NCBI GenBank assembly: GCA_040757695.1
Contig: JBFLWK010000016.1
Location: 1 to 39,015 of the forward strand
DNA length: 39,015 bases
Source of the DNA: Elusimicrobiota bacterium
GTDB taxonomy: Bacteria; Elusimicrobiota; UBA8919
Reading direction: 5' to 3'
This document shows positions 127 through 17,387 of the stretch, one piece after another. The notes beneath the pieces were generated by a model. It did no database searches, was not told the origin of the DNA, and saw nothing but the letters and a program-made list of their open reading frames with translations. Position numbers and translations under genes: made by a program. The stretch's first letter is position 1, and every line of letters starts with the position of its first letter.

Positions 127-272
127 TCATTCTCCATTTTTTATGTGTTCAATTGCACAATCATCATACAAAGGAGCCCATGCACTTTCTGTATAAAAAG
201 CATCATATTGATCATTGCCTTCTTTTTTGCTTCATCTTCATCCACATAACCGAACCTTACTTCTACAGCCAT
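127..272 (-). pseudogene. Small ORF, apparently frameshifted, next to the intron
   Basis: The ATG at 272 overlaps the stop of the restriction gene upstream (TAATG), as expected for translational coupling. The frame opens with MAVEVRFGYVDEDEAKK. At a run of six A's (about 215-225) the plausible protein moves to another frame, continuing with NDQYDAFYTESAWAPLYDDC and ending at TGA 127-129. One extra A would give a 48-residue protein. It could be a real frameshift, transcriptional slippage, an assembly error, or chance. I do not recognise the product. Confidence 0.3.
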
Positions 273-973
273 TAAAATTTGACTTCTAATAAAATATTTT
301 CTTTTTTATATAATTCTAAATTGTCAGTATTAAATTCTGGTTTCATTGATACCTTGATATTAAATAAATCAATAAGACACCATCCTGTAATTATGAATTC
401 TTTCTCTTTCTGTTCAAAAGTGTCAAAACATAGTAGTAAATGGTGTCCATCATTTTTAATTTTCTTCTTTGAATTTTTCAATGGAGAAAAGAAAAAATCT
501 CTTGGTGAACCTATATCGCGTCTTGAGGTTGTTTTTACTTCAAGATATGTAATTCCTCCATATTTGTCAGTAATCACTTCATCAGGGTAACCATTTAGAG
601 ATAATCTCTCAAAAGAGGTTATTATTTTGACTTTATCCTTATTTGTGTCAAAAAATAAAGGTATTACTTTATCAGCAAAAATTCCTATTTCATTATTGCA
701 AAAACTTTTCGGTTTTGGTGGATTAACCAATGATTTATAAATATCAAAAGTAATTGGAGTTTTATTATATTTTTTAGCAAAATCATTTACAATAATAGAA
801 ATATCACCCATTAAAAGTTTGTCATTTTCATCTTCTCTATTAATAGGGATAATTTTCTTGTGAATTGTAGATTCCACAACTATATGGAAGTCCAACAAGC
901 TAAACGCACCTATTATCTCTTTAATAATTCTTTCGTAATTGTCCATCCTTTTCTGCAATTCATTGTTTTCCAT
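272..973 (-). CDS. Type II restriction endonuclease, PD-(D/E)XK-like (R-M system 1)
   Basis: This 233-residue protein would cut DNA as the restriction partner of the methyltransferase gene that ends 3 bp upstream. Residues 130-131 (PD) and 145-147 (EVK, in YLEVKTTSR) form a PD...ExK pattern, the metal-binding core of PD-(D/E)XK nucleases, and the spacing is normal. No closer family is recognisable, so the recognition site is unknown. The gene starts with ATG after an AGGAAT ribosome site. The stop overlaps the next small reading frame. The nuclease role rests on the motif plus the methylase neighbour. Confidence 0.65.
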   Translation of the reverse strand: MENNELQKRMDNYERIIKEIIGAFSLLDFHIVVESTIHKKIIPINREDENDKLLMGDISIIVNDFAKKYNKTPITFDIYKSLVNPPKPKSFCNNEIGIFADKVIPLFFDTNKDKVKIITSFERLSLNGYPDEVITDKYGGITYLEVKTTSRRDIGSPRDFFFSPLKNSKKKIKNDGHHLLLCFDTFEQKEKEFIITGWCLIDLFNIKVSMKPEFNTDNLELYKKENILLEVKF

Positions 974-976
974 TTA

Positions 977-2950: not shown

Positions 2951-2953
2951 TTC

Positions 2954-3898
2954 TTATATTGGAAAAGAAATTTTTGTCCCAAAATTAAATTTCCTTGGGT
3001 CAACTCTTTTGTCATTAAGCCGATACTGTTTTCGACTCTTTGTCCTTTTTGTAAAACCGGGTTTTTGAGTATTTTGAAAAATTATTTCGTAATTCTGACT
3101 TTTGTCAAACAATTCTTTTTGTTTTATTCCAAGTTTCTCTTTAATGACATCCAAAAAAGCAGGATTAACTTCATAACTAATTGAATTTCTATCAAGCAAA
3201 GCCGCAACTTTTGTTGTCGTTCCACTTCCTAAAAACGGGTCAAGAACAGTGTCTCCAACGAAACTATACATTTTTATCAAACGGCGAGGCAATTCCTCAG
3301 GGAACATTGCGAGATGCCCGTTTTGTTTTTCACCGGCAAAATTCCAATGTCCATAAAAATATTTCACCCATTCCTCATGACTCATTTTTGATTCTTCTTT
3401 TTGCTCCCTTGTTGGAACAGGCGATTTACCCAATTTTTTGAACAATAAAATAAATTCATAATCAATAGAAATCATTCCATTTCTTGGATAAGGATAGGAA
3501 CCCATCACCGTTGCACCACCAGTTGTTTTGCAGGTTGTAACTTTCTGCCAGATAATTGCACCCATATAATCAAAACCGATTTTTTCACAAAAATTCACAA
3601 TCGTTTCTCGTATAGGAATAATTTTATATCTGCCATAAATTACTGAGCGGGCAAATTGGTCACCAATGTTAACACATAACCTGCAACCTGGATGCAAAAC
3701 ACGATAACATTCAGCCCAAACTTTATTGAGTGAATCAACATATTCCTCATAGCTCTGGTGAAAACCAATCTGATTTTTACAACCATAATCCTTTAATTGC
3801 CAGTAGGGTGGTGATGTAACCACTAAATGAACCGATTCATCTTTCAGTTCTCTCATATTTCTAGAATCACCAATAATAATTTTGTGAGATGTTTTCAT
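2954..3898 (-). CDS. DNA methyltransferase, beta class, probably N4-cytosine (R-M system 2)
   Basis: A 314-residue site-specific methylase. The catalytic motif TSPPYW is at residues 28-33 and the AdoMet-binding DPFLGSGTT at 220-228, the beta-class order with the target-recognition region between them. SPPYW is typical of N4-cytosine enzymes. It follows, 7 bp downstream, the gene for an MjaI-like nuclease. MjaI cuts CTAG, so this enzyme probably protects CTAG or a related site. That specificity is inferred from the partner. The full motif set suggests an active enzyme. Confidence 0.85.
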   Translation of the reverse strand: MKTSHKIIIGDSRNMRELKDESVHLVVTSPPYWQLKDYGCKNQIGFHQSYEEYVDSLNKVWAECYRVLHPGCRLCVNIGDQFARSVIYGRYKIIPIRETIVNFCEKIGFDYMGAIIWQKVTTCKTTGGATVMGSYPYPRNGMISIDYEFILLFKKLGKSPVPTREQKEESKMSHEEWVKYFYGHWNFAGEKQNGHLAMFPEELPRRLIKMYSFVGDTVLDPFLGSGTTTKVAALLDRNSISYEVNPAFLDVIKEKLGIKQKELFDKSQNYEIIFQNTQKPGFTKRTKSRKQYRLNDKRVDPRKFNFGTKISFPI

Positions 3899-3905
3899 AA
3901 AATTA

Positions 3906-4505
3906 TCAAATTTCGCTTGCGTCTATTTCTAATCCTGTTTTTGTTTTTTTATAGTAGATTACTTTGACTTTAATTTCTTCACTTAAAGCATTTTTGGTTT
4001 TATATGTTATTGGTTTTATAGATATTGGAATGTTTCCCACAAAACCATCAATACCTTGTGATTCTTCTTTTGGTTCTGCTAATCTATAATCTACTTTCTT
4101 TATCTTTGCAATTTTCTTCAAAACTGCTTCCTGAAATCTTAACCCGATAAAAGTTTTTTCAAGCACTAAATCGTCTACCCATTTTTTTATCAATGGCTCA
4201 TCAATCAATTTAACGGCTTCCTGTAAATTTAATATCATTTCTTTTATTTTTTCTACAGCATCGTTGATAGCATCGGGATATTTTCTGAGATACCAATTTT
4301 TCCAGCCCATATATGTTCTTTCAGGACATTCTTTTATCAGTTCCGATAGTTGCCCTACTACTCTTGGTCTCGTTCCCTGAGCATTTTGATTGGCAAGATT
4401 TATTATTTGAGTTGTATATTTGGGAAAATCTTTTATTTCACCAATAAGTTCTTGTTTTAACTCATCATTTTTAATCTTGATAATATTTTTCATTTTCAAT
4501 GCCAT
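3906..4505 (-). CDS. MjaI-family type II restriction endonuclease (R-M system 2)
   Basis: A 199-residue protein that I recognise as MjaI-like from the segment NLANQNAQGTRPRVVGQLSE near residues 37-56. The family prototype from Methanocaldococcus jannaschii cuts CTAG. A C-terminal stretch (GIDGFVGNIPISIKP) may hold nuclease residues, with an acidic residue before a KP. The start overlaps the 3' end of the BMC pentamer gene by 10 bp, so the R-M pair is tied to BMC transcription. An alternative ATG lies four codons inside. Specificity here is untested. Confidence 0.75.
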   Translation of the reverse strand: MALKMKNIIKIKNDELKQELIGEIKDFPKYTTQIINLANQNAQGTRPRVVGQLSELIKECPERTYMGWKNWYLRKYPDAINDAVEKIKEMILNLQEAVKLIDEPLIKKWVDDLVLEKTFIGLRFQEAVLKKIAKIKKVDYRLAEPKEESQGIDGFVGNIPISIKPITYKTKNALSEEIKVKVIYYKKTKTGLEIDASEI

Positions 4506-4795
4506 TTTTTGGTCTGACCTTTGGAAAATACCGTGTCAATAATTCCGCAGATGATTGTTCTTACTGGTGCAACTTTGTCGTTTAATATCTGACGGGCAGA
4601 GTTGCCTTCGTCCATCACCAAAACGGTATTGCCAATCCCTGCGTCAATGTATTTGTCAACCGCAAGCATAATATCTTCGTCAATAAATTTCCCTGAAATA
4701 CCGTCAAGCCGTCTCACTAAAAGAAGTTTTGTGTTTTCTAATGATTTATGTTTTCTGGTCGCCCAGACATTTCCCACAACTCTTGCTATGAACAT
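4496..4795 (-). CDS. BMC pentameric vertex protein, EutN/CcmL family (copy 1)
   Basis: A 99-residue protein of the EutN/CcmL family (BMC-P), whose pentamers cap the vertices of the microcompartment shell. The family start, MFIARVVGNVWATRKH, is followed by NTKLLLVRRLDG, VDKYIDAGIGNTVLV and the closing IICGIIDTV. It is the most divergent of the three copies: it has AVDKYIDAG where the others have AVDVVGAG or AVDAVGAG. A GGGAG ribosome site precedes the ATG. It is the last BMC gene in the transcription direction and is followed at once by the MjaI-type nuclease. Confidence 0.88.
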   Translation of the reverse strand: MFIARVVGNVWATRKHKSLENTKLLLVRRLDGISGKFIDEDIMLAVDKYIDAGIGNTVLVMDEGNSARQILNDKVAPVRTIICGIIDTVFSKGQTKKWH

Positions 4796-4813: not shown

Positions 4814-5563
4814 TTATCTCTTCCAACTTTTATGCCTTAATATCTCAAGTTCTTTTATCAGTGGATGCCAGTATTTTTTATCTTTTTTTCGCTCTAATAA
4901 CTCTTCATCTTGCAACAATTCTGTCAATTTTGCTATATTTTTTTTAATCGCTGCAGCCAGAAGCGGTCTTTTTTTGATACATTCCCGTGCCAAATTTATA
5001 TTTTTATCTGTCAGTTCAATCAATTTATCAATACTCCGACATTCGCATAACCACCACTTAATTTTTTCGTCAGATGGTTTTCTTGTTAAAATTATATCAT
5101 TTTCAACGAGTCGGTTAAGCATTAGCCAATCTTTATCTCTCTGCGTTTTTTTGCTTTGCACCAAATCCGTTAATCCAATTATATCAATCCTTTTGTTTTC
5201 TACCAATTTGAGTGTATATCGTCGCTGCCATAATTTATCAAAATCATCACATCCTCGTAATTTTGCGATAATATCAATCCTCAAATTTTTTGCTGGTTCA
5301 GCATAACATCTGAAATGGCATGCATGTCCTTCTTCAAGAAATTCTTTTTTTAGCGGTGGTACATAGATATTTTTTGCTTTAAGTGCAGAAAGCACCTTTT
5401 TAAGTTTATTAAGATTTTGTGTATCACAAAAAATAACGAAATCAGAGTCCCTGCTAAACTCTGCGGCACCGTATATGATGCATGCCTGACCGCCTATTAA
5501 AAGACTTTTTACACCAAATTTCTGGAAAGTAAAAAGGACTTTTAGTATCGGGTTCCGGGTCAA
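4814..5563 (-). CDS. Nucleotidyltransferase-like protein with small overlapping partner (module A)
   Basis: A 249-residue protein. The N-terminal part has the nucleotidyltransferase core: GGQACIIYGAAEFSRDSDFV, with the Gly-Gly turn and the D-x-D metal pair. The C-terminal half is charged and helical, without a family I recognise. The likely start is a TTG at 5563, since no ATG precedes the core. It overlaps the upstream 72-residue gene by 110 bp. Related enzymes occur in AbiE-like and MNT toxin-antitoxin systems, so a selfish or defence module is plausible. It separates two eutN genes. Confidence 0.65.
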   Translation of the reverse strand: MTRNPILKVLFTFQKFGVKSLLIGGQACIIYGAAEFSRDSDFVIFCDTQNLNKLKKVLSALKAKNIYVPPLKKEFLEEGHACHFRCYAEPAKNLRIDIIAKLRGCDDFDKLWQRRYTLKLVENKRIDIIGLTDLVQSKKTQRDKDWLMLNRLVENDIILTRKPSDEKIKWWLCECRSIDKLIELTDKNINLARECIKKRPLLAAAIKKNIAKLTELLQDEELLERKKDKKYWHPLIKELEILRHKSWKR

Positions 5564-5672
5564 GATCCCCTCCGATAGCCAAGTATAATTCCCACAATTT
5601 ACCAGTTTCCAGCAATCTTTCTGCCGGTGTGAGTTTTAGCCATTCCATTTCTTCAGTTGTGTATTTCTTCAT
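5454..5672 (-). CDS. Small partner protein of nucleotidyltransferase module A
   Basis: A 72-residue protein of unknown function. Its first half is distinctive (EEMEWLKLTPAERLLETGKL, then WELYLAIGGDLDPEPD). The last third overlaps the nucleotidyltransferase start in another frame and may be less constrained. A second small gene with the same layout (11399-11596, LDYLMSLTTGQRFKMMHD) precedes the other nucleotidyltransferase. The paired arrangement suggests a two-gene cassette. An AGGA site precedes the ATG, which lies 2 bp after the eutN copy 2 stop. Confidence 0.6.
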   Translation of the reverse strand: MKKYTTEEMEWLKLTPAERLLETGKLWELYLAIGGDLDPEPDTKSPFYFPEIWCKKSFNRRSGMHHIRCRRV

Positions 5673-5674
5673 TC

Positions 5675-5956
5675 CTATATGACCAGATTTATTCCGTCAA
5701 TTATACCGACAATCGCAGCATCTACTGGAGGTGTATCAGCCAGAGATGTCCCGCCACAGGCAACCGCAGCTTCACGAGCACCAACATAAAAAACAAATTC
5801 AGAAGCGCCTGCACCGACGACATCTACAGCAACGAGAGGTTCACCTTTGGGCTTTTTATCCCATGTCAGCGGCTGAACAAGAAGCAGTTTTTTCCCTTCT
5901 AATGATCCATATTTTTGTGTTGCAACAACCCTGCCTATAATTTTCCCTGCAAACAT
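5675..5956 (-). CDS. BMC pentameric vertex protein, EutN/CcmL family (copy 2)
   Basis: A 93-residue BMC-P protein. It begins MFAGKIIGRVVATQKYGSLE, continues with GKKLLLVQPL and the family hallmark LVAVDVVGAGASEFVF, and ends with DAAIVGIIDGINLV. Such pentamers close the shell vertices. It lies between the lipoprotein gene, with palindromic repeats in the gap, and nucleotidyltransferase module A. No good ribosome site is visible. Three different pentamer genes in one locus could form alternative or mixed vertices. That is inference. Confidence 0.92.
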   Translation of the reverse strand: MFAGKIIGRVVATQKYGSLEGKKLLLVQPLTWDKKPKGEPLVAVDVVGAGASEFVFYVGAREAAVACGGTSLADTPPVDAAIVGIIDGINLVI

Positions 5957-6094: not shown

Positions 6095-6721
6095 TTACTG
6101 TAATTCCTTCCAAAATGGCTTTAATGATTTTTTTAGCGAACTGACAACCAAGCCGACTGCTGTATTTATATCTAACGCTTCGTAACTTTTTGAATCGCTC
6201 CATACAACCTCGCCAGTTAAACCATCTGTAATTTTTGCCGAAATAGATACGGATGCGGATACTGTAAAAACATTGGCATCTTCAAGCCCGAATGCAGAAC
6301 CCGTCGGAAGAACAGTCGTTCCGCTTATCGGATATGCTTTATCTGATATTACAATTTTACCCTTTTCCTTAAACACCAACAATTTATTTGATGGATTAAA
6401 CTCAATTACATTCCCGGAAATTATTGCATCAACCCCAAGTGATTTTGTATCGCTGATATTCTGAATATCTGTTCTATCAATAACATTCAGTCCTGCGGAC
6501 AAAAACTGTCTTATGAACTCGTTGCTTACTGCATCACCACCATCACCTGAAAATTTTAAGACAGCGATTTTTTTTATACTTGAAAAATCATAACCCTTTT
6601 TAATAACTGTTTTTGTTGTTGCACAACCGAAAAAGGCAGGTAAAAGGTAAAAGGTAAAAGGTAAAAGGTAAAACCACTTCCAATAATTTTTAATTTTTAA
6701 TTTTACATTTTTAATTGTCAC
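6095..6721 (-). CDS. Lipoprotein with CsgG/penicillin-binding-activator-like fold
   Basis: A 208-residue predicted lipoprotein. A hydrophobic signal (WFYLLPFTFYLLPAFFGC) ends in a lipobox Cys near residue 33. The mature part (KKIAVLKFSGDGGDAVSNEF, DRTDIQNI, GVDAIISGNVIEF, TDGLTGEVVWSDSKSY) follows the pattern of CsgG-like or GNA1162-like envelope lipoproteins. The start is a GTG inside a GTGA overlap with the TPR gene. The signal peptide is encoded by a 7-bp tandem repeat. Why an envelope lipoprotein sits in a BMC operon is unclear. Confidence 0.7.
   Translation of the reverse strand: MTIKNVKLKIKNYWKWFYLLPFTFYLLPAFFGCATTKTVIKKGYDFSSIKKIAVLKFSGDGGDAVSNEFIRQFLSAGLNVIDRTDIQNISDTKSLGVDAIISGNVIEFNPSNKLLVFKEKGKIVISDKAYPISGTTVLPTGSAFGLEDANVFTVSASVSISAKITDGLTGEVVWSDSKSYEALDINTAVGLVVSSLKKSLKPFWKELQ
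6639..6673. repeat. Tandem 7-bp repeat (GGTAAAA x5) encoding a signal peptide
   Basis: Five perfect copies of GGTAAAA lie inside the lipoprotein gene. On the coding strand, TTTTACC repeats read F-Y-L-L-P-F-T in every frame, because 7 is not a multiple of 3. Any copy-number change leaves the peptide hydrophobic, but it alters the downstream frame unless it comes in threes. Further AT microrepeats (6686-6715) encode the residues before it. Confidence 0.9.
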
Positions 6722-7212
6722 TTTGCACCCCCTAAAAACTGAATATGTTTTTTTGCTATTTCTTTGAAATCAGAATTTTTTACAAGTTTAGTCCAGTATA
6801 AAATTGCATTTTCTTTTTCATCTTTTTTTTCATAAAGAACAGCGAGTGTATATTGTATTGCTGGAAGACTTTTATCTTCCTGCTTATTCTTTTTGGCTTC
6901 TTTTATTAAGTATTCTTCTGCTGCTTTTAAGTGGGCTTCGGCTTCCCATAAACTGTTTTTTTGCAAAAACATCATTCCGAGTGCGACATCGGGAAGCGGC
7001 GATTTTTCATCCAGCTTTTTTGCTTCAAGAAGTATCTTTACCGCTTCGTCGTATTTTTTCTCTTTAATAAGCTTGTTACCTTCTGCTACAAGTTGGTTCA
7101 CATCCTGTGCATTAAGTAAAGTGTAAAGTGTAAAGTAAAAAGTGTAAAGTAAAAACCATTTCCATGTTCCGCGTCGGTTCTGCGTTTTGTTTCGCGTCTG
7201 TTCTGCGTTCAT
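6718..7212 (-). CDS. Exported TPR-like protein
   Basis: A 164-residue protein with a signal-like hydrophobic stretch (WFLLYTFYFTLYTLLNAQ, about residues 18-35). Helical repeats follow, of tetratricopeptide type: NKLIKEKKYDEAVKILLEAK, LGMMFLQKNSLWEAEAHLKA and YTLAVLYEKKDEKENAILYW. Such proteins usually act as scaffolds in envelope complexes. The start overlaps the rpiB copy 1 stop and the end overlaps the lipoprotein start, so TPR protein and lipoprotein are probably partners. The whole N-terminus is encoded by microrepeats. Confidence 0.7.
   Translation of the reverse strand: MNAEQTRNKTQNRRGTWKWFLLYTFYFTLYTLLNAQDVNQLVAEGNKLIKEKKYDEAVKILLEAKKLDEKSPLPDVALGMMFLQKNSLWEAEAHLKAAEEYLIKEAKKNKQEDKSLPAIQYTLAVLYEKKDEKENAILYWTKLVKNSDFKEIAKKHIQFLGGAK
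7114..7211. repeat. Two microrepeat tracts covering the N-terminus of the TPR gene
   Basis: 7114-7157 is built from variants of GTAAA and GTGTAAA and encodes the hydrophobic signal. 7169-7211 is built from GCGTC(T/G)GTTCTGCGTT variants and encodes the residues before it. Both are degenerate direct repeats like those in the intergenic gaps, but here they lie in frame. Confidence 0.8.
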
Positions 7213-7646
7213 TTCCCCTCCTCAATTTTTTTTATTTTTTTAACTCTTCTTAAATGTCGACCTTTTTCAAATCTTGCTGAAAGAAATTTTTTTACTGCTT
7301 TTTTAATGTGAATAAGCGAAAAATCTTCTGAAAAACAGATAATGTTTGCATCGTTATGCCTGACTGAAAATTCTGCCGCTTTGGGTGAATAGCCAACGAC
7401 AGCCCTCGTGCCTTTAACCTTATTTGCGGCAATACATATACCATTGCCTGAACCACATACTAAAATCCCTCTGTCAAATCTTTTTGATACAACCGCTTTT
7501 GCGACGCTGTATGCAAAATCCGGATAATCGCAACTATTTTCAGAAAAAGTCCCGAAATCTTTTATCATATAATTTTTTGATAAATATTTTATCAGTTCTG
7601 TTTTATACCGGAATCCGCGATGGTCACTTCCGATTGCTATTTTCAT
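7209..7646 (-). CDS. Sugar-phosphate isomerase, RpiB/LacB-like subunit with catalytic Cys
   Basis: A 145-residue RpiB/LacAB-family protein. These enzymes interconvert aldose and ketose phosphates (ribose 5-phosphate, allose 6-phosphate or galactose 6-phosphate). IAIGSDHRGF at the N-terminus, Cys64 in LVCGSGNGICIAANK, HNDAN near residue 97 and GRH near the end are the family's phosphate-binding and catalytic residues. A second homologue without the Cys lies 37 bp upstream. RpiB homologues are typical of sugar-phosphate-utilising BMC loci. The exact substrate cannot be read from sequence. Its stop overlaps the TPR gene start. Confidence 0.88.
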   Translation of the reverse strand: MKIAIGSDHRGFRYKTELIKYLSKNYMIKDFGTFSENSCDYPDFAYSVAKAVVSKRFDRGILVCGSGNGICIAANKVKGTRAVVGYSPKAAEFSVRHNDANIICFSEDFSLIHIKKAVKKFLSARFEKGRHLRRVKKIKKIEEGK

Positions 7647-7683: not shown

Positions 7684-8133
7684 TTATTTTAAATATTTTT
7701 TTTCTATTTCAGTAACTTTATCCAGCCGACGATAGTGTCTGCCACCTGCAAACTTTGTTTCAAGCCAGACTTTAATTATCTCCTGTGCTTCTAAATCGCC
7801 TATCATTCTTGCCCCGAGACACAAAATATTTGCATCGTCATGTTCAGACGCGAATTTTCCGGTAAGTTCGTTATATGCACATACAGCTCGGATACCCGGC
7901 ACTTTGTTCGCTGCAATAGGCATTGCCCCGCCGGTGCCATCTATCAAAATACCTTTTTCGTACTCCATTTTAGCGAGCGATTCTGCAACCAACAGTGCAA
8001 TATCAGGCCAATCAACCGCCTCTTCAGAATAGCAACCAAAATCAAAAACTGTATGACCTAACCCTTGCAAAAATTTTTTTAGTTTTTCTTTAAGTTGGAA
8101 ACCTGAATGATCAGAACCAATTACAATATTCAT
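7684..8133 (-). CDS. Sugar-phosphate isomerase, RpiB/LacA-like subunit lacking the catalytic Cys
   Basis: A 149-residue RpiB/LacAB-family protein (IVIGSDHSGF, DWPDIALLVA, HDDANILCLGARMIGD, GGRHYRR). The position of the usual catalytic Cys holds Asp65 (GILIDGTGGAMPIAANK). Asp at this position is also found in LacA of galactose-6-phosphate isomerase, where the Cys is supplied by LacB. It could therefore form a mixed enzyme with the downstream Cys-bearing homologue, or act on another substrate. A Mycobacterium-type Glu replacement is not evident either. Confidence 0.87.
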   Translation of the reverse strand: MNIVIGSDHSGFQLKEKLKKFLQGLGHTVFDFGCYSEEAVDWPDIALLVAESLAKMEYEKGILIDGTGGAMPIAANKVPGIRAVCAYNELTGKFASEHDDANILCLGARMIGDLEAQEIIKVWLETKFAGGRHYRRLDKVTEIEKKYLK

Positions 8134-9192: not shown

Positions 9193-9489
9193 TCACAACT
9201 TTTCGTACGCCTTTGAACGATGTTCTATTCTGAAAATCCATATTTTCTGCTTTTCATGAGAAATCCAGTAAAGATTTCGCCAGTCGCCACTATGAATTCT
9301 ACAAAGTCCTTTCAAGTCATTCGGCATTGAAGTCAACTGATGATGAGCGATACTTTCTGCGTTTTCAGCTAACTAATTTATTTTCTTATCAATTCTTTCA
9401 CGAACTGAAAAGTCAAGTTTGGATAAGTCATCAATTGCTTCTGGATAAGTATCTATTTGATACTTAATTTTTGCTTCACCTGTTCCCAT
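9193..9489 (-). pseudogene. RelE/ParE-type toxin interrupted by an in-frame TAG
   Basis: The frame from ATG 9489 to TGA 9193-9195 encodes a RelE/ParE-like toxin of about 98 residues: YPEAIDDLSKLDFSVRERI, HHQLTSMPNDLKGLCRIHSG and DWRNLYWISHEKQKIWIFRI, ending EHRSKAYEKL. A TAG at 9373-9375 breaks it after residue 38. Intact members are mRNA interferases or gyrase poisons. The antitoxin gene upstream overlaps its start and looks intact. Either the toxin is dead, or the TAG is read through or is a sequencing error. Confidence 0.75.
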
Positions 9490-9686
9490 GGAATAAATTT
9501 TCCAGCTTCCATATCTGCTTTTGCTTTTCTCATTCTTTTGATAAACTCTGGATCATGTGCCAGAAGCCAGTCCTCAATTTCTTCTTTTGTGTCTGCGGTT
9601 TCAAATACCTCAACAGGAATTGTAATAGTATTAGTTTTGTAATTTACACATTGTTCTTTAACAAACTGTGCTTTTTTCTTTTTCAT
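9453..9686 (-). CDS. Antitoxin of the RelE/ParE-like pair
   Basis: A 77-residue acidic protein, PVEVFETADTKEEIEDWLLA followed by RMRKAKADMEAGKFIPWEQV. The C-terminal part is typical of antitoxins whose tail wraps the RelE-type toxin. It overlaps the toxin frame by 37 bp and starts 2 bp after pduS. It separates pduS from the BMC-T gene, although those two are neighbours in classic pdu operons. The cassette is therefore an insertion into an ancestral pair. Confidence 0.75.
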   Translation of the reverse strand: MKKKKAQFVKEQCVNYKTNTITIPVEVFETADTKEEIEDWLLAHDPEFIKRMRKAKADMEAGKFIPWEQVKQKLSIK

Positions 9687-9688: not shown

Positions 9689-10990
9689 CTACCTCTCAAT
9701 TTTTATGAAATTGCTCACTCCTATAATTTTGCCATCAATTGAAGCGTGAATATTTGCCGATAATTTACCGTCGGGAATCTCTGCTATCAACTGACCTTTT
9801 TTTACTTTATCACCAACTTTCACAACCGGTTCTGCAGGTGCTCCTGTATGCTGTGAGAGTGGAATTTTTATTTCTGAAATTTCTATTGCTCTATCTGTAA
9901 AAGGTGCAGGCTTATCATATTGAATTAAATCAAGCCGACCCAAGATTCTGTGTAGAGGTACTCTACGATATTCACGCATTGGATGGACTTCAGACGGCAT
10001 TTTTTTATATGGATTCTTTTGCCCGTCTTTTATAAGTTTCTGTTTTATTGTCTGATTTATTTTTCTGGGTAAGAGTTTGCCTGGGCAAACCCAATCGCAA
10101 AGCCCACACTCAGAGCACATAAATGCTTGTGTGATATTTTCTGTTAAGCCACAAGCGGTTGAACGCTGAATTTTGTGACATTCTAGTGTATGTCCTAAAA
10201 GATACCTCGGACAAATCTCGGTGCAATCCTGACATTGTTCACAAGCGCTTTTTGATTGTTTTATAGCGTGCCTGTTGGATTTCTGGTAAACAACCTCGCT
10301 ATCCGACGGGAGAATGAGTATGCCTGATGTTTTTTTTGTAATTGCTGTGTCTTCAGAAATAATTGTTCCCATCATAGGCCCGCCGTCAAGAACAGTATAA
10401 TCGCTCGTAGTTGTCCCACCTGCAAAATTAATTACTTCCGCAACTGATGTTCCGATAGGAAAAAATGCAGTAACCGGATTTTTTACTGCACCGCAGACGG
10501 TCAAAGGCCTGTCAGTTACTGGTTGGCCGTCAACAGCATTTGCAATATTCATCAGAGTAACAACATTATCTACTACTATGCCGACATTCAGTGGGATTCC
10601 GCTTTCCGGTAGAATTTTTCCTGTAACCTCATAAACAAGAACAAACTCATCACCTGCGGGATAGAAATTATTTAAATAAAAAAGAGAAATTGGGAAATTG
10701 GGAAACTGGGAAATTGTTTTATTCAACGCATTTATTGCTGGTTGGTATTTTTCTTTCAGTGCGATAATGCCGTTTTTTGCGCCAGTTGACTCCATTGCCA
10801 ACTGCAATCCACGGACAACTCGTTCTGCATAAATGTCCATCATCTGTTGGTCTACTCTTAAAAGCGGTTCGCATTCCGCACCATTTGCAATAACGGTCTC
10901 AACTTTAGCAGAAAGTTTTATATGCGTTGGAAAACCCGCCCCACCCGCACCGACAACGCCAGCATTTTTAACAAGTTCAACTATATTCAT
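9689..10990 (-). CDS. pduS: PduS-like RnfC-domain flavo-iron-sulfur oxidoreductase
   Basis: A 433-residue PduS/RnfC-type protein that oxidises NADH by FMN and iron-sulfur clusters. The N-terminal Gly-rich loop is GVVGAGGAGFPTHIK (residues 11-25). A soluble-ligand-binding beta-grasp region lies around 170-190. Two [4Fe-4S] motifs follow, Cys250/253/256/260 and Cys292/295/298/302. A biotinyl-lipoyl-like C-terminal domain (VKVGDKVKKGQLIAEIPDG) ends it. In pdu BMCs PduS binds PduT. Here it could recycle NAD+ made by the aldehyde dehydrogenase. Residues 93-104 are encoded by a microrepeat. The ATG overlaps the nucleotidyltransferase stop (ATGA). Confidence 0.9.
   Translation of the reverse strand: MNIVELVKNAGVVGAGGAGFPTHIKLSAKVETVIANGAECEPLLRVDQQMMDIYAERVVRGLQLAMESTGAKNGIIALKEKYQPAINALNKTISQFPNFPISLFYLNNFYPAGDEFVLVYEVTGKILPESGIPLNVGIVVDNVVTLMNIANAVDGQPVTDRPLTVCGAVKNPVTAFFPIGTSVAEVINFAGGTTTSDYTVLDGGPMMGTIISEDTAITKKTSGILILPSDSEVVYQKSNRHAIKQSKSACEQCQDCTEICPRYLLGHTLECHKIQRSTACGLTENITQAFMCSECGLCDWVCPGKLLPRKINQTIKQKLIKDGQKNPYKKMPSEVHPMREYRRVPLHRILGRLDLIQYDKPAPFTDRAIEISEIKIPLSQHTGAPAEPVVKVGDKVKKGQLIAEIPDGKLSANIHASIDGKIIGVSNFIKIER
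10681..10716. repeat. In-frame microrepeat inside pduS
   Basis: Three to four copies of AAATTGGGA variants occur in the coding sequence, giving S-Q-F-P-N-F-P-I-S-L-F just before the conserved NNFYPAGDE. The reading frame is kept. Confidence 0.8.
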
Positions 10991-11439
10991 TTTTTCTTTT
11001 TTCTCTTTAAAATTGCTGTCAGATATTTTAAATCTTCTTTGTCTTTAACTCGTCCCGCTGCTTTCTTCATTTTTATCATATCTTTAAGCGCTGGAAAATA
11101 TACATAAGTATCACCTATTTTGGCACGGATTTTGTTTTTCCAGACCTCTTTAAAATTTATACCGGTAACGAATGGATGGATATCAGTCGGCAATACATAT
11201 TGGCGAATAAGTGTTTTTTTAGTAAGAAAATTTTCAAGTGTTGTGTCCTCAATAATATCATAACCAAATTCTTTTAGTGCTTTAATTGCTTTTTTGGCAT
11301 TTTCTTCAATTGGCTCAATAAAAATATCAATGTCAAATGTTGCACGAGCATATCCATATGCAGGAAATGCCTCGGCTCCTATAACAAGGAATTTAACATT
11401 ATGTTCTTTGAGTAATTTCAGGAGTTGTTCTATGTTCAT
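10987..11439 (-). CDS. Nucleotidyltransferase-like protein (module B)
   Basis: A 150-residue nucleotidyltransferase-fold protein. The core is VKFLVIGAEAFPAYGYARAT then FDIDIFIEP, with a D-x-D pair but GAE in place of the GGQ of module A. It is shorter than module A and ends in a Lys-rich tail. It overlaps the upstream 65-residue gene by 41 bp and the downstream pduS start by 4 bp, so the cassette sits in the BMC operon without breaking it. Antitoxin or toxin function is only suggested by the arrangement. Confidence 0.65.
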   Translation of the reverse strand: MNIEQLLKLLKEHNVKFLVIGAEAFPAYGYARATFDIDIFIEPIEENAKKAIKALKEFGYDIIEDTTLENFLTKKTLIRQYVLPTDIHPFVTGINFKEVWKNKIRAKIGDTYVYFPALKDMIKMKKAAGRVKDKEDLKYLTAILKRKKKK

Positions 11440-11596
11440 ATTTTTTAATTCTCTTCATTATTAGTAGAGATCTATCATGCATCATTTTGAATCTTTGACC
11501 CGTTGTAAGAGACATTAAATAATCTAACTCAAACTCAATTTCTTTTTTTTCGGCATTTTTGTCGTTTTTGCCAATCATTAAAATTTTTGTTTTCAT
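11399..11596 (-). CDS. Small partner protein of nucleotidyltransferase module B
   Basis: A 65-residue protein with a charged N-terminus and a central segment, LDYLMSLTTGQRFKMMHDRS. That segment echoes the WLKLTPAERLLETGKLWELY of the module A partner. Its start overlaps the aldehyde dehydrogenase stop (ATGA) and its end overlaps the nucleotidyltransferase start. No domain is recognised. The shared layout suggests a two-gene cassette in which the small protein is made first. Confidence 0.55.
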   Translation of the reverse strand: MKTKILMIGKNDKNAEKKEIEFELDYLMSLTTGQRFKMMHDRSLLIMKRIKKYEHRTTPEITQRT

Positions 11597-13020
11597 GCTA
11601 TTCTGAAATAATCAACTAAAACACAGCGGAGTGGGCGAGTGAAATTTTTTGCTTTAACTAATCCATCGCCTGTTGGGGTTGCGATTGAAAGCGCCGCATA
11701 ACCCTCACCCATTCCTAAACCCATATACGAAGGGCCGTTTTTCACAAAGATAGAACCCTGACATAGACGCGCCATTTTCGTTAAATTAGCAACATTCAGA
11801 GAATGCATAATAAATGTGTGATGATTATCGCCTTCAACCTCAATTCCGAATTCTATCGCGGAGTCAACATCCTTCATTTTTACAACAGGCATAACTGGCA
11901 TAAGTTGTTCAGTCCATACAAACGGATGGTTTTTTTCTACCGTACCCCAAAGCAGCCGTATATCGTCAGAAATATTCAATCCAAGCGCTTTAGCAATTAC
12001 TGATGCATTCCTTCCAACATAATCACGATTCATCACACCTTCTTTATATTTTCCGCCGGGCTCTTTGATAACAATTTTTGCAAGTTCATCCATCTGTTTT
12101 GCAGAAAGTTCATAGGTGCGATTATCTTTTCTTAAGGATGATAAAAACTGGTCAAAGACTTTTTCAACAACAAGTGTTTCTTTTTCGGCCGTGCATAAAA
12201 TCCCGTTATCAAAACTTGCACCTGATACCATATCTTGCGCGGCTTTTTCTATTATAGCAGTTTCATCAACTATACAGGGTGGATTACCTGGACCTGCAGC
12301 AATTGTTTTTTTACCAACGGACATCGCAATTTTTACAATTGCAGGTCCACCTGTAACAAGGTTCAGTTTTACTTTTGGATGTTTTAATAATGCTTGTGTG
12401 AACTCAACCGATGACGGATTTACTGTTGAAACAAGCGACAATGGCCCGCCGGCAGAAATAATTGCATCGTTCAAAATTTTGATTATCTGGTGCGAACATT
12501 TGTTCGCAGCTGGATGTGGCGCAAAAATCACAGAATTACCAGCTGCGATAATTGAAATAGCGTTATTTATAATAGTTGATACAGGATTTGTAGACGGTGT
12601 AACTGCTGCGATTATCCCGTAAGGCGCATTTTCTACAAGTGTAAGTCCGCGGTCGCCGGTAAAAGCAGTTGGTTGTAAATCTTCAACACCGGGAGTTTTC
12701 TCGGCAGCAAGAATATTTTTTTGAACCTTATCTTCCCACCTGCCCATTTTTGTTTCTTCAACAATCATTTTAGCGAGGTATTCTGCATTTTGGATTGCAG
12801 ATTCTCGTATTGCTTGAATAATTTTTTCTCGTTTTACAAGCCCTAAATCCCACAAAATCTTCTGGGCAGTTTCTGCAGCGTTCAAACATTCCTCAAAATT
12901 ATCAAAAACAGGACCGACAGAATCCGTTGTCGGAGTGATATTGATTTTTTCTTCGGTTTCTGATAGCCGTTTTATCACTTCTGCAACAATTTTAGAAATA
13001 TCATTTTCGTTTAGTTCCAT
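11593..13020 (-). CDS. pduP: CoA-acylating aldehyde dehydrogenase, PduP/EutE type
   Basis: A 475-residue aldehyde dehydrogenase that would turn an aldehyde, NAD+ and CoA into acyl-CoA and NADH inside the compartment. Residues 1-20 (MELNENDISKIVAEVIKRLS) form an amphipathic helix like the encapsulation peptides of BMC cargo, followed by a Pro/Thr linker. The substrate loop NAPYGIIAAVTPSTNP, GPGNPPC and catalytic Cys276 (DNGILCTAEK) match PduP and EutE. It lies between eutN copy 3 and nucleotidyltransferase module B. Whether the substrate is acetaldehyde or propanal is not decidable here. Confidence 0.93.
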   Translation of the reverse strand: MELNENDISKIVAEVIKRLSETEEKINITPTTDSVGPVFDNFEECLNAAETAQKILWDLGLVKREKIIQAIRESAIQNAEYLAKMIVEETKMGRWEDKVQKNILAAEKTPGVEDLQPTAFTGDRGLTLVENAPYGIIAAVTPSTNPVSTIINNAISIIAAGNSVIFAPHPAANKCSHQIIKILNDAIISAGGPLSLVSTVNPSSVEFTQALLKHPKVKLNLVTGGPAIVKIAMSVGKKTIAAGPGNPPCIVDETAIIEKAAQDMVSGASFDNGILCTAEKETLVVEKVFDQFLSSLRKDNRTYELSAKQMDELAKIVIKEPGGKYKEGVMNRDYVGRNASVIAKALGLNISDDIRLLWGTVEKNHPFVWTEQLMPVMPVVKMKDVDSAIEFGIEVEGDNHHTFIMHSLNVANLTKMARLCQGSIFVKNGPSYMGLGMGEGYAALSIATPTGDGLVKAKNFTRPLRCVLVDYFRIA

Positions 13021-13030
13021 AATAGAACCA

Positions 13031-13097
13031 GTGATTATGTGATTAAGTAATTAAGTGATTAAGTAAAACCTAACCACGTAACCACTTAGCCACTTAT
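13031..13097. repeat. Intergenic microrepeats before the aldehyde dehydrogenase gene
   Basis: Copies of GTGATTAAGTAATTAAGT and of AACCACGTAACCACTTAGCC fill the gap between eutN copy 3 and the aldehyde dehydrogenase gene and reach the eutN stop. No promoter is evident in it. Confidence 0.75.
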
Positions 13098-13405
13098 CTA
13101 CTGCCTTTTGTGTCTGCACTTTTCTTAAAAACAACCTTGCCGTCTTTCTCTATGTAGTCAATAATTGCCATTATCGTTGTATCAACAGGATTGCCTTCGG
13201 TGCGTTTGGTCTGACGAGCGGAAGAACCTTGAACTATTAAAACAAGCTCGCCTTCTCCAGCACCGACGGCATCCACAGCAACAAGTTGGTTTCCCTTGGG
13301 TTCTCCTTCAAGTGAAACCGGCTGGACCATTAAAAGTTTGGTGCCGACAAGTTTATCATCTTTTCGTGTGCAGACAACATTGCCTATAACACGGGCAAAT
13401 TGCAT
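13094..13405 (-). CDS. BMC pentameric vertex protein, EutN/CcmL family (copy 3)
   Basis: A BMC-P protein of 103 residues from the ATG at 13405. A GTG two codons earlier is possible, but GGAGTG is better placed for the ATG. It reads MQFARVIGNVVCTRKDDKLV, then LLMVQPVSLEGEPKGNQLVA, AVDAVGAGEGELVLI and TTIMAIIDYIE. It is the copy closest to PduN or EutN and lies directly downstream of the BMC-H gene. Vertex capping is the family role. The C-terminus carries a short charged tail absent from the other copies. Confidence 0.92.
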   Translation of the reverse strand: MQFARVIGNVVCTRKDDKLVGTKLLMVQPVSLEGEPKGNQLVAVDAVGAGEGELVLIVQGSSARQTKRTEGNPVDTTIMAIIDYIEKDGKVVFKKSADTKGSR

Positions 13406-13425
13406 AGTCACTCCACTCCTTATAT

Positions 13426-13522: not shown

Positions 13523-13524
13523 TA

Positions 13525-13815
13525 TTATTTCTTCTTGCTTTCTAATAAAGAGATTGGCATTGTGCCTTCCAAATCCTGATGTGGCTGCGGAATCACATGA
13601 ACGGCAACCAGTTCGCCGACTTTTTGTGCTGCTGCAGCACCTGCTTCACAAGATGATTTACAGGCTGCGACTTCTCCACGAAACAGAACCGTTACGAGTC
13701 CGCTTCCAATTTTTTCCCAGCCAACCAATTTCACATTCGCTGCTTTCACAGCAGCATCCGCGGATTCAATCAGAGCGATTAAACCGCGCGTCTCAATCAT
13801 TCCCAATGCTTCCAT
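13525..13815 (-). CDS. BMC hexameric shell protein, PduA/PduJ type
   Basis: A 96-residue single-domain BMC protein, the main facet tile of the shell. It reads [20 protein letters not shown], then [20 protein letters not shown] and [13 protein letters not shown]. The KIGSGLV pore loop is that of PduA and PduJ. It is the only single-domain BMC-H gene in the window, so it must form most of the facets unless others lie elsewhere. A strong GGAGGT site lies 4 bp before the ATG. Similar microrepeats flank it on both sides. Confidence 0.95.
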
Positions 13816-13828
13816 CCATACCTCCTTA

Positions 13829-13891
13829 AAACCCGAATGTAAACCAAATGTTAACCGAATTAAACCGAATTATTCGGTGCAGTCATTCGTG
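13829..13891. repeat. Microrepeats 5' of the BMC-H gene
   Basis: Variants of CGAATGTAAACCAAATGTTA and AACCGAATTATTCGGT lie between the response-regulator gene and BMC-H. The same unit occurs at 13438-13470. The last codons of the response-regulator gene fall inside the tract. Confidence 0.75.
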
Positions 13892-14833
13892 TTCTTCAAC
13901 CCTTCTTTCAAAAACATATCTATTACCACCTAAAGATTTGGCATGTTTTTTAAGTTCTGCAGATATTATAGAAAACTCTGCTTTATGTGTAATTTTTATT
14001 TTGTCTGTAGAAATGATAGCAATACTGATACTCATAAGCGGAAACTTTTCCAAATTCCCTACTCGGTTTTTTACTTCTATATTTCTGTTTTTCGCATCTT
14101 CAGGACTATAATACTTCTCTACTGATTTATTAAATTCATTCAAGATATAATTCGCAATTTTTTCAGCTGTCTGGCATTCTGTAAAAATAACAAAATCATC
14201 ACCACCAATATGTCCGACAATATCTTCGCTGTTTTCACAATTTCTACATGCATTTACACAGATAAATCCTACATTTTTGATTATCTCATCGCCATTTAAG
14301 AAACCGTATTTATCGTTATAAGATTTGAAATTATCAATATCCAAGTAAAGTGCGGCAAATGGTTTTTCAGCATTCATTCTGGCGTTGAGTTCATATTCAA
14401 TAGACTGGTTACCTGGTAATTTCGTTAACGGGTTAGCATCTAAATAACCTGCATGTCTTTTAAGCAGCCCTTTCACTCTTGCTACTAATTCGTAAGGATC
14501 CACAGGCTTATAGATATAGTCATCGCATCCGTATTCCATACCTTTTATTCTATCTTCTACTTTTTTCCTTGTTCCTGTTAAAAAGATTAACGGCAGATGT
14601 CTTAAAAAAGAGTCATTTCTTAAAGTTTGTAATACATCATATCCTGTGAGATTGGGCATATCAATATCTGAAATTACGATATCTGGTTTATGCTGGTATA
14701 TTTTTTCCAAAAGTTCTTTGCCGTCGGATGCTTTAAAAACCACAAAGCCATGTTTCTCTAAAGCAAAACTAAGAAATTCCAGAATATCCGGTTCGTCATC
14801 TGCTACTACAGTTTTTATTTCTTTTAGGTTCAT
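13883..14833 (-). CDS. Response regulator with diguanylate cyclase domain (REC-GGDEF)
   Basis: A 316-residue protein. An N-terminal receiver domain (residues 5-120) has the acidic pair ADDEPD, phospho-acceptor Asp56 (VISDIDMP), LTGTR and Lys109 (YKPVD). A GGDEF domain follows, with NPLTKLPGN, LDIDNFKSYND and the active-site variant GGDDF at 210-214. The inhibitory RxxD site is not kept (NSED at that position). It would make c-di-GMP when phosphorylated. It overlaps the pduL stop by 4 bp (ATGA) and precedes the BMC-H gene, so it belongs to the BMC operon. No histidine kinase gene is nearby. Confidence 0.85.
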   Translation of the reverse strand: MNLKEIKTVVADDEPDILEFLSFALEKHGFVVFKASDGKELLEKIYQHKPDIVISDIDMPNLTGYDVLQTLRNDSFLRHLPLIFLTGTRKKVEDRIKGMEYGCDDYIYKPVDPYELVARVKGLLKRHAGYLDANPLTKLPGNQSIEYELNARMNAEKPFAALYLDIDNFKSYNDKYGFLNGDEIIKNVGFICVNACRNCENSEDIVGHIGGDDFVIFTECQTAEKIANYILNEFNKSVEKYYSPEDAKNRNIEVKNRVGNLEKFPLMSISIAIISTDKIKITHKAEFSIISAELKKHAKSLGGNRYVFERRVEEHE

Positions 14834-15453
14834 AAAATTATTACTCTATCACCGTTTTTTATACCAGCGGCATTTGCTTCGTCAGTATCTATATGGAATT
14901 CTAACGCCATGTTTTCGCGAACACGTGCGACAACATTATCAAAAACAAGCCCTCGTTCGCTTTCAACTTTTACGCTTATATTTTCGCCATCTTTTACCTG
15001 AAAGAACTCGGCATCCTTCGGTGTAAAATGAACATGCCGTTTGGCAACGATACAACCTTCTTTCAGTTCAATTAGCCCATTTGGACTAATTACTGTTATC
15101 GGTGCAGAATTTTTTATATCACCTGATACTCGCAGCGGTGCATTTACACCGAGAATAAATGTATCCGTTTTAGAAATCTCTATCTGTGTAAATTTTCTTA
15201 CAGGACCAAGTACACGCACATTTTTTATCTCGTTTTTCGGTCCTTTAATAGAAACCGATTCTTTTGATGCGAACTCGCCTGGCTGCATAAGGTCTCTATC
15301 TTTCGTAAGTTTGTAACCAGTTCCAAAAAGTTTTTCCAAATCTTCCTGACAGAGATGTATATGTCTGTTAGAAACATTTGCAATCACAGGTTTCTGCGCC
15401 CTTTTTTCTCTCATTTTGATTTTTTCCGTAATTCTTTCCGTAAGTTCCGACAT
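14830..15453 (-). CDS. pduL: Phosphate acyltransferase PduL
   Basis: A 207-residue PduL, which converts acyl-CoA and phosphate to acyl-phosphate and frees CoA within the compartment. The family's metal-binding histidines are present: SNRHIHL (His31, His33), KRHVHFTP (His140, His142) and HIDTDEANA (His187). The first 20 or so residues (MSELTERITEKIKMREKRAQ) form an amphipathic helix suited to encapsulation. Its GGAGTGA ribosome site lies inside the last codons of the restriction gene upstream. It pairs functionally with the PduP-type dehydrogenase. Confidence 0.94.
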   Translation of the reverse strand: MSELTERITEKIKMREKRAQKPVIANVSNRHIHLCQEDLEKLFGTGYKLTKDRDLMQPGEFASKESVSIKGPKNEIKNVRVLGPVRKFTQIEISKTDTFILGVNAPLRVSGDIKNSAPITVISPNGLIELKEGCIVAKRHVHFTPKDAEFFQVKDGENISVKVESERGLVFDNVVARVRENMALEFHIDTDEANAAGIKNGDRVIIL

Positions 15454-15456
15454 AAA

Positions 15457-16173
15457 TCACTCCATTCTAAAACCAATAATTTTTTCTTGTGTAATTCTTC
15501 TATCTAAAAATAAAAACTTGATTCTGTATGGTTTATCATTCAATAACTTAAATTTTGGACTATTTTTATACTCGTAGCGGAATGCCTCACCTTTATTTTT
15601 ACTCGCACCAATAATTTTATCATCATAAATTATTTTTAACTCACCATTAGGAACAGCAATAAGTAAAATTGCCAATATTACAATATCTCCGTTTTTGTTA
15701 TACTCATAAACGATATTTATGACATAAGTTAAACAAATTTTTTCAGTTGGCTTGCCTTTATTATAAAAAGTGGGTAAATGAACTTCATAGTGCTTCCCAT
15801 AATAACTTGTTTGATTAGCACCAAGTGGAACTTTTCCTTTGTAGTCAGACGGATTATCAAATTTTGTTGTTTTAATATCTATATGAACAAAAGCATTGTG
15901 GGTTTCAAAAAACATATCTGCTCCAATAGGAGCAGAACTCGGTTTACCAAATTGACTGAATAGCCAATAATAAATTCTTTCTGCTCCACGACAAAAATCA
16001 GAATTTTGTTTTTTCTTATCAATTCTGTCAAAAAATTTTTTCCAGTCATTTTTAATTTTATCCTTTGAATTAAGACCATCTATCATTTTTTGTAAATCCT
16101 GACTTAAATCAAAATCAATCTTCTTGAAATAATCGTATTCTAACATTTCAATCTTTTTTAGTTTTGTATTCAT
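15457..16173 (-). CDS. Putative type II restriction endonuclease (R-M system 3)
   Basis: A 238-residue protein with a PD-(D/E)XK-like core: GADMFFE (Asp86) then FVHIDIKTTKF (Asp99-Ile-Lys101). It overlaps the methylase gene upstream by 4 bp, the usual layout of a type II R-M pair. No specific family is recognised, so the site is unknown. It ends 3 bp before pduL, and its last codons double as the pduL ribosome site. The nuclease call depends on the motif and the partner. Confidence 0.65.
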   Translation of the reverse strand: MNTKLKKIEMLEYDYFKKIDFDLSQDLQKMIDGLNSKDKIKNDWKKFFDRIDKKKQNSDFCRGAERIYYWLFSQFGKPSSAPIGADMFFETHNAFVHIDIKTTKFDNPSDYKGKVPLGANQTSYYGKHYEVHLPTFYNKGKPTEKICLTYVINIVYEYNKNGDIVILAILLIAVPNGELKIIYDDKIIGASKNKGEAFRYEYKNSPKFKLLNDKPYRIKFLFLDRRITQEKIIGFRME

Positions 16174-17387
16174 ATAATTTTTATTTCTCCACAGCGTTTT
16201 TTGATAATTTTTACAAATTTTGATTGTAATTCTATCAAAATTGATTTCCTATTTAATTCCAAAGCAACTTTTCCTGTTGTACCAGAGCCAGCAAACGGGT
16301 CTAAAACAATTCCATCTGAAGGACAACATGATTTTATTGCCATTTTCGGTATTTCTTCAGGAAAAACTGAGAAATGTTCGTAACCAGTTTTTGCTGTATT
16401 TATTATCCATAAATCCCCGGGGTTTTTTCCTTTAGGATGATTTTGAACAACTTGTAAGACCAAATGTGTTTCTGTCATTTCTTTATCATATCTGTCGTCA
16501 AAATTTAATATCTTTTTTAATTTTAACCAATCATTAGGGGTTGGAAGCGAACCACCAACATCTTTTCTGAACCAATGTCCTGCTGTATGTTTATACCCAA
16601 GAATTTTGTCAATTTCTTTCACACTAATTTCTTTTTTTTCTCGCCAATATCTTAAATAATCGCATATCTCACTCAATGATAATTCATGTTTCCGTTTAAG
16701 TGTATATCTGCCCTCTGAAATTGACATTCTAGCGCCGGGAGATGCACCAATATTTTTTTCATTACCTCGGAATTTGCCATTATACTTTTTGCCTTTTGGC
16801 ATTTGTATTTCTTTTTGTGTCTTATGCGGAATTCGTATAGAATCTATATCAAAACAGACATTTTTTTCCCAATCGTTTTTTGTGAAAAAGAAAACCGGTT
16901 CATATGTATTTGTAAATCTTGTTCTTACCGGTGATGGCATGTGGTCAGGTTTATACCATATAATTTGGTTTCTTAAAAGCCAACCCATATTTTGCATCCC
17001 GATTGCAATACGGGATGGAATCATCTGTAAATTTTTATCAACATATGTATCACCTATATTCAAAAAATATGCCCCATCATCTTTTAACACTCTTAAAATT
17101 TCATCACCAACCCTTATCATTTTTCCAACATATTCCTGTGGTGATTTTTCTCTGCCAATCTGATTTTCTATTTCATAATCCCTTAAATTCCAATATGGCG
17201 GCGAGGTCACAACCACTGAAATGCTTTTATCAGGTATCCGTCTTAATTGTTCAAAAACATCTCCCAAAAGCAAATGCGGTATTGTATTATTTGGTAATGA
17301 GATAGTATTATTCTCTATATTTTTATAGGTTTCTTTTTTTCTTTTAATTAATACATTAAAAGAATAATTTTGTGGAACTACCTGCAT
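16170..17387 (-). CDS. DNA methyltransferase, beta class, probably N4-cytosine (R-M system 3)
   Basis: A 405-residue methylase. TSPPYWNLRDY starts at residue 61 and the AdoMet motif DPFAGSGTTG lies near 363, the beta-class order. A large region between them includes a helix-turn-helix-like stretch (LSLSEICDYLRYWREKKEIS, then KEIDKILGYKHTAGHWFRK) that is probably the target-recognition domain. SPPYW favours N4-cytosine. It starts 2 bp after tpiA and overlaps the nuclease gene. The pair is wedged exactly between tpiA and pduL. Confidence 0.85.
   Translation of the reverse strand: MQVVPQNYSFNVLIKRKKETYKNIENNTISLPNNTIPHLLLGDVFEQLRRIPDKSISVVVTSPPYWNLRDYEIENQIGREKSPQEYVGKMIRVGDEILRVLKDDGAYFLNIGDTYVDKNLQMIPSRIAIGMQNMGWLLRNQIIWYKPDHMPSPVRTRFTNTYEPVFFFTKNDWEKNVCFDIDSIRIPHKTQKEIQMPKGKKYNGKFRGNEKNIGASPGARMSISEGRYTLKRKHELSLSEICDYLRYWREKKEISVKEIDKILGYKHTAGHWFRKDVGGSLPTPNDWLKLKKILNFDDRYDKEMTETHLVLQVVQNHPKGKNPGDLWIINTAKTGYEHFSVFPEEIPKMAIKSCCPSDGIVLDPFAGSGTTGKVALELNRKSILIELQSKFVKIIKKRCGEIKII

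Follow-up and report, generated by a model that had tools for sequence, protein, structure and literature searches.

At least five gene junctions of a bacterial microcompartment (BMC) operon in a 39,015-bp stretch of Elusimicrobiota DNA are occupied by restriction–modification (R-M), nucleotidyltransferase, RelB/E-like or HEPN/MNT cassettes. The stretch analysed (hereafter the window) is a complete contig (C16) of a 2.89-Mb genome in 264 contigs that is 99% complete (G000), and the closest records to its PduP are in the Elusimicrobia metagenome assemblies UBA4817, ADurb.Bin231 and NC_groundwater_1671. R-M and toxin modules are usually associated with mobile elements and defence islands; in this uncultured lineage, they are scattered across core operons (gyrase, arginine, threonine, aromatic, nucleoside and microcompartment). 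Depending on the relative, the junctions are empty or filled, the cassettes fit tightly and leave the neighbouring genes unbroken; some of them have been kept by descent under purifying selection, and others have been lost or are decaying. The cassettes are probably small modules, mostly type II R-M or toxin–antitoxin (TA)-like pairs of the nucleotidyltransferase, RelBE and HEPN/MNT types, that lie one or a few to a junction without an integrase, in operon slots resembling minimal mobile elements (MMEs); such slots would be unusually numerous in this family, with the BMC operon one of many that hold them, and an unusually full one.

Cassettes between the microcompartment genes

Gene identities were assigned with Pfam profiles and PADLOC, and RNA families with RF02005 and RF00029. 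A first-pass annotation had described R-M, nucleotidyltransferase, RelB/E-like and HEPN/MNT cassettes in the BMC junctions, on a single strand and mostly with gaps of 2–20 bp or ATGA overlaps. All of the genes that it named are present, with Pfam or PADLOC support, and the gaps are as claimed or tighter; two seemingly long ones are occupied by small open reading frames (ORFs; 153 bp before module B, 65 aa; 111 bp before module A, 72 aa). The minus strand carries all main genes of the window. The cassettes span 15457–17387 (R3, at tpiA/pduL), 10987–11439 (module B, at pduP/pduS), 9193–9686 (RelB/RelE-like, at pduS/pduT), 4814–5563 (module A, at eutN/eutN) and, beyond the last eutN, 2954–4505 (the MjaI-type R2), 2239–2950 (HEPN/MNT) and 272–2242 (R1). 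Their genes are listed here with the other intruders and an R-M pair outside the operon (R4):

272–973, minus: R1 restriction endonuclease, 233 aa (PADLOC REase_II, E 7e-18)
977–2242, minus: R1 DNA methyltransferase, 421 aa (PF01555, E 1.4e-19)
2239–2727, minus: MNT nucleotidyltransferase, HEPN partner (PF01909, E 1.9e-4; PADLOC PDC-S09)
2702–2950, minus: HEPN, truncated, 82 aa, profile positions 2–55 of 117 (PF05168, E 4e-11)
2954–3898, minus: R2 DNA methyltransferase (PF01555, E 2.3e-44)
3906–4505, minus: R2 MjaI-type restriction endonuclease, 10-bp overlap with eutN (PF09568, E 7.5e-68)
4814–5563, minus: module A nucleotidyltransferase-like protein, 249 aa (GG...DSD motif; no Pfam match)
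5454–5672, minus: module A partner ORF, 72 aa, 2 bp after eutN 2 (ORF list and translation)
8164–8352, minus: 62-aa ORF at pduT/rpiB, adjoining a repeat-like stretch (sequence)
9193–9489, minus: RelE/ParE-like toxin gene, in-frame TAG at 9375–9373 (PF05016, E 2.2e-6 with one TAG)
9453–9686, minus: RelB-like antitoxin, 77 aa, overlapping the RelE-like frame (weak DUF2683 match)
10987–11439, minus: module B nucleotidyltransferase, 150 aa, ATGA overlap with pduS (PF19502 DUF6036, E 2.6e-5)
11399–11596, minus: module B partner ORF, 65 aa, its ATG overlapping the pduP stop as ATGA (sequence)
13883–14833, minus: response regulator–GGDEF protein at pduL/pduA, non-defence (PF00072, PF00990; not at this junction in G004, G006 or G008)
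15457–16173, minus: R3 restriction endonuclease (PADLOC REase_II, E 1e-21)
16170–17387, minus: R3 DNA methyltransferase (PF01555, E 3e-50)
31208–31813, minus: R4 EcoRI-type endonuclease, outside the BMC operon (PF02963, E 2.3e-15)
31831–33063, minus: R4 D12-class methyltransferase, outside the BMC operon (PF02086, E 2e-18)

In R1, R2, R3 and R4, a methyltransferase gene adjoins a restriction endonuclease gene and both are intact, as predicted for type II R-M systems. The pair at pduS/pduT lacks the intact toxin beside an antitoxin that marks RelBE or ParDE systems, its RelB-like partner matching weakly, and we rejected a working TA system there because the RelE-like toxin is broken by an in-frame TAG. 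Nor does the HEPN/MNT pair have a full HEPN domain with its catalytic region (2–55 of 117 positions are covered), although MNT is present, and module A is a putative nucleotidyltransferase by its motif. No mobility gene turned up in four of the cassettes (R3, modules A and B, and RelBE); a group II intron is present in the eutN/DUF4139 slot. Other intruders among the BMC genes are the response regulator–GGDEF gene and, at pduT/rpiB, the 62-aa ORF with its repeat-like stretch. The R4 pair (31208–33063) is flanked by an aminotransferase gene and an ABC transporter gene.

The BMC genes of the window are backed by Pfam (PduA, three EutN, PduP, PduS, PduT, two RpiB, PduL and TpiA). By predicted gene content (DERA, aldehyde dehydrogenase, PduL, RpiB, TIM and shell genes), the locus is of the sugar-phosphate-utilising (SPU) type; the DERA gene, on contig C7, was identified by eye, and a second PduA on C7 by similarity. 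The low end of the window is an assembly break inside the operon, not the operon's end. C7 starts with group II intron D5/D6 (L044 23–122), followed by the DUF4139 gene, DERA and the second PduA, and we infer a C16–C7 join from the two intron halves together with synteny with a relative (G006). Relatives run in the order eutN – (R-M) – DUF4139 – DERA, which places R1, HEPN/MNT and R2 within the operon. The remaining features of the operon are:

1–86, minus: group II intron 5′ end (domains I–IV), cut by the contig end (RF02005, E 2.6e-8, cut 3′)
C7, 23–122: group II intron 3′ end (RF00029, E 1.1e-7)
4496–4795, minus: EutN/CcmL vertex protein 3 (PF03319, E 6e-23)
5675–5956, minus: EutN/CcmL vertex protein 2 (PF03319, E 6.6e-26)
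6095–6721, minus: CsgG-like lipoprotein gene (kept in relatives' locus)
6718–7212, minus: TPR protein (weak TPR matches; kept in relatives' locus)
7209–7646, minus: RpiB 2 (PF02502, E 4e-49)
7684–8133, minus: RpiB 1 (PF02502, E 7e-50)
8629–9183, minus: PduT, two BMC domains (PF00936, E 1e-40)
9689–10990, minus: PduS (PF01512, E 6e-43)
11593–13020, minus: PduP aldehyde dehydrogenase (PF00171, E 7e-30)
13094–13411, minus: EutN/CcmL vertex protein 1 (PF03319, E 2e-33)
13525–13815, minus: PduA shell hexamer (PF00936, E 1e-27)
14830–15453, minus: PduL (PF06130, E 2e-77)
17390–18202, minus: TpiA (PF00121, E 3e-105)

Insertions and old residents in related genomes

We compared these junctions with those of relatives (genomes G001–G008, G011 and G034; in G004 and G006, the BMC operon is split over two contigs each). 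The order tpiA pduL pduA eutN pduP (pduS) pduT rpiB eutN eutN DERA is found phylum-wide with few intruders, and the junctions are clean in most of about 30 related BMC loci. The earlier claim that the cassettes are insertions into a conserved gene order stands for most of them: pduS and pduT are adjacent in G004 and G008, as expected if the pair between them is an insertion, and both genomes lack cassettes at pduP/pduS, pduS/pduT and eutN/eutN, so that the sites of module B, the RelBE pair and module A are empty. In the available relatives, the nucleotidyltransferase modules and the RelB/E pair were not found at the junctions that they occupy here. The claim fails for R3, which is shared at tpiA/pduL, and in part for R2, the methyltransferase of which has an 88.5% identical orthologue at the same slot in G006. 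At pduL/pduA, G006 carries a 135-aa gene similar to an 84-aa gene of G034.

R3 is common to this genome, G004 and G006 at tpiA/pduL, the latter two being relatives in a second genus that keep it intact there; in G007, the contig ends there and only the methyltransferase is visible. Across the three intact copies, the methyltransferase and nuclease are 82–92% identical, with nonsynonymous substitution rates (dN) of 0.04–0.11, synonymous rates (dS) of 0.5–2.3 and dN/dS ratios of about 0.04–0.09, in the range of TpiA, PduL, PduS and PduP. A recent arrival of R3 was rejected, because the pair is intact at tpiA/pduL in G004 and G006 and conserved like the BMC genes; judged by its position and substitution rates, R3 is a long-term resident of this junction under purifying selection.

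The slot between the last eutN and the DUF4139 gene holds different systems in different genomes: the MjaI-type R2 together with R1 here, an HNH-type R-M in G006 and G008 (methyltransferase 86% and HNH nuclease 88.5% identical between the two) and a different R-M in G004.

The same kinds of cassette in other core operons

The BMC operon does not appear to be the special target for which the first-pass annotation had taken it, as similar cassettes stand in many core operons of this genome and in relatives. A genome-wide census, made with profile searches and the neighbourhoods around matches (excluding C36 and C5, contigs of this genome with phage-like stretches that hold more methyltransferases), placed cassettes also at gyrB/gyrA, argC/argJ, thrC/thrB, adeC/deoB and rfbC/rfbB, before aroF and after secA (host genes by Pfam except rfb, which was assigned by eye; nucleases by PADLOC where matched). 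At gyrB/gyrA (L170 4888–14413, contig C21), an AbiEii-like pair, a methyltransferase, small genes and two MNT/HEPN pairs are packed with few-bp gaps; this junction is empty in G001, G002 and G005 and occupied, with differing contents, in this genome, G004 (HNH and YhcG nucleases) and G006, and in G011 an AbiEii-like gene 62% identical to its counterpart here precedes gyrA. Other junctions behave similarly: argC/argJ is a 4-bp ATGA overlap in G001, G002 and G004 and holds unrelated R-M systems in this genome and G007; adeC/deoB is a 4-bp ATGA overlap in G006 and holds different R-M systems in this genome and G007; and hisC/aroF is a 4-bp ATGA overlap in G001, G003, G004, G005 and G006 and holds an R-M in G002, with an R-M directly before aroF in this genome (there, the cassette is at a contig start with the upstream gene out of view, and its assignment to hisC/aroF comes from the relatives). 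Related systems also occur in different slots, for example at adeC/deoB in G007 and pyrK/pyrD in G003 (methyltransferase 75%, nuclease 62% identical), and at argC/argJ in G007 and beside the phosphoglycerate mutase gene in G004 and G006 (59–61%). By eye, two consecutive ORFs at pyrK/pyrD in G003 resemble an IS3-type transposase. Overall, tpiA/pduL, eutN/DUF4139, gyrB/gyrA, argC/argJ and adeC/deoB are each a region between two conserved genes that, between genera, holds varying whole-gene cassettes or none, as MMEs do.

These distributions bear on whether the BMC operon is a preferred home, offering selfish modules stable expression or itself being a costly operon stabilised against loss, which we consider very unlikely. 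Five of the 33 profile-detected R-M, HEPN or RelE modules of the genome fall in the 17.1 kb of the BMC operon (0.19 expected; scan P = 0.0016), and distant relatives carry unrelated TA or defence genes in the same operon, recognised by eye: a HicB/HicA-like pair between pduT and rpiB of a distant SPU locus (L150 7105–7517, from a metagenome-assembled genome named Caldiserica B21_G15) and, in G034, HEPN/MNT with a type I restriction-like N-terminal protein at pduP/pduS (L036 11542–13811) and a ParE-like pair at pduT/rpiB (L036 15761–16272). Counted as independent insertion sites, however, the clustering is not significant (3 of 28; scan P = 0.25), and a BMC-specific enrichment, significant by module but not by site, was rejected. 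Core operons elsewhere in this genome are equally full, and most BMC operons of the phylum have no cassettes. Moreover, the locus in G003 (L222 1156–9798) has TpiA, PduL, RpiB, DUF4139 and DERA but lacks shell genes, PduP, PduS and PduT (the whole assembly yielded no PduP), and this remnant still holds an R3-like R-M pair (59% and 70% identical) before DUF4139; its retention without a BMC does not favour protection of the BMC.

A functional link between cassettes and pathway is disfavoured and, in our view, extremely improbable. R-M systems would here serve SPU catabolism of DNA sugars, their nucleases releasing nucleotides for DERA, which would suit the assignment of SPU BMC loci to deoxyribose phosphate breakdown (PMC4207490) and the presence of R-M in the adeC/deoB nucleoside operon. 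However, the R-M types are non-homologous, each with its own methyltransferase, the same kinds of cassette stand in unrelated gyr, arg, thr and sec operons, and most SPU operons of the phylum have no R-M.

Chance, by which modules land anywhere in an R-M-rich, densely operonic genome with neither slot preference nor benefit from location, is unlikely to be the explanation, yet several observations lean towards it or weigh against MME-like slots. The genome has 33 PF01555 matches and about 20 methyltransferase loci in 2.9 Mb, and the BMC clustering by sites is not significant. In the stretches sampled, 94% of neighbouring genes point the same way (and 46% of pairs do so with a gap of at most 30 bp), so that colinearity can be had without a dedicated mechanism. 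At five cassettes, no target duplication stood out clearly from chance (longest shared repeat 6–10 bp; module B alone, with an A-rich 10-mer repeat, lies slightly above its 95% null). The relatives compared are separate genera, not strains, and resolve cassette swaps only coarsely. The genomes are metagenome assemblies in many fragments. The boundary test used cassettes hand-picked from methyltransferase neighbourhoods; in it, 84% of cassette boundaries were at most 30 bp, versus 48% for ordinary codirectional host pairs, with a null that skips genes shorter than 120 aa and a P value that is indicative only. Against chance stand these tighter boundaries, the purifying selection on R3 and the repeated occupation of the same junctions by different cassettes across genera; at gyrB/gyrA and eutN/DUF4139, the present sample already points to slot reuse well beyond random placement. 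Together, these results favour MME-like slots.

Possible mechanism and relation to known systems

Cassettes may enter such slots through rare recombination events that are illegitimate or use short homology; given the importance of the flanking genes, only seamless, colinear insertions would survive. After a slot has been filled, its cassette could be spread or swapped by homologous recombination in the conserved genes on either side (ComEC is encoded, which would permit such recombination and no more), and the host operon's promoter would drive cassette expression. A complete R-M pair might then persist through post-segregational killing upon loss and/or a benefit from restriction; addiction, defence or both may explain why R3 has been kept.

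It is also conceivable, if quite doubtful, that ATGA stop–start overlaps act as seamless docking sites, with modules that begin and end in ATGA swapped via very short homology and no mobility enzyme. Where adeC/deoB, argC/argJ and hisC/aroF are empty, the two host genes often meet in an ATGA overlap, and 4 of 22 cassettes have an ATGA overlap at both ends, versus 0.4 expected (module B; adeC/deoB in this genome and G007; argC/argJ in G007). If true, defence modules could travel through core operons without a mobility enzyme and leave their neighbours undisturbed.

The striking features are the number of slots, their position inside operons and how long R3 has stayed in place, rather than the BMC itself. 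Reused slots, with at least one R-M pair intact across genera, offer a natural system for studying how modules enter operons seamlessly and whether being linked to essential genes secures their place in the chromosome. They also carry a warning: operon neighbours in such genomes need not be functional partners.

Like defence islands, these loci bring together R-M, TA and abortive-infection-like genes, but here such genes are split, one or a few per junction, among conserved metabolic genes and form no single accessory block. The selfish type II R-M gene complexes of Kobayashi are reportedly mobile R-M pairs with possible addiction; here, by comparison, no long target duplication accompanies the five cassettes tested. 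Movement of R-M linked to insertion sequences has also been described (PMC3031569). The locus shares DERA, aldehyde dehydrogenase, PduL, RpiB, TIM and shell genes with other SPU loci (PMC4207490), but in this copy, unlike most related ones, R-M/TA cassettes and a group II intron interrupt the gene series. Oliveira, Touchon and Rocha (2014; PMC4176335) found acquired R-M regions to be mostly small, suggested small genomic integration hotspots and reported about two R-M systems per genome larger than 2 Mb; this 2.9-Mb genome, in contrast, has about 20 methyltransferase loci, many at operon junctions.

In an MME, conserved genes enclose different cassettes that are incorporated by homologous recombination (PMC3898611), and in Neisseria, the pheS/pheT locus holds a type II R-M (PMC3082526), which, by analogy, is the direct precedent for the junctions described here. 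In both, varying whole-gene cassettes, often R-M, or none lie between two conserved genes, apparently with no integrase. The present slots differ in being many and inside operons, with few-bp gaps or ATGA overlaps and several cassette types per operon, and in being compared between genera, where exchange by homologous recombination would be the corresponding process. The kind of phenomenon is already known from MME-like R-M slots; what stands out is the number of these slots and their operon-internal position in this family.

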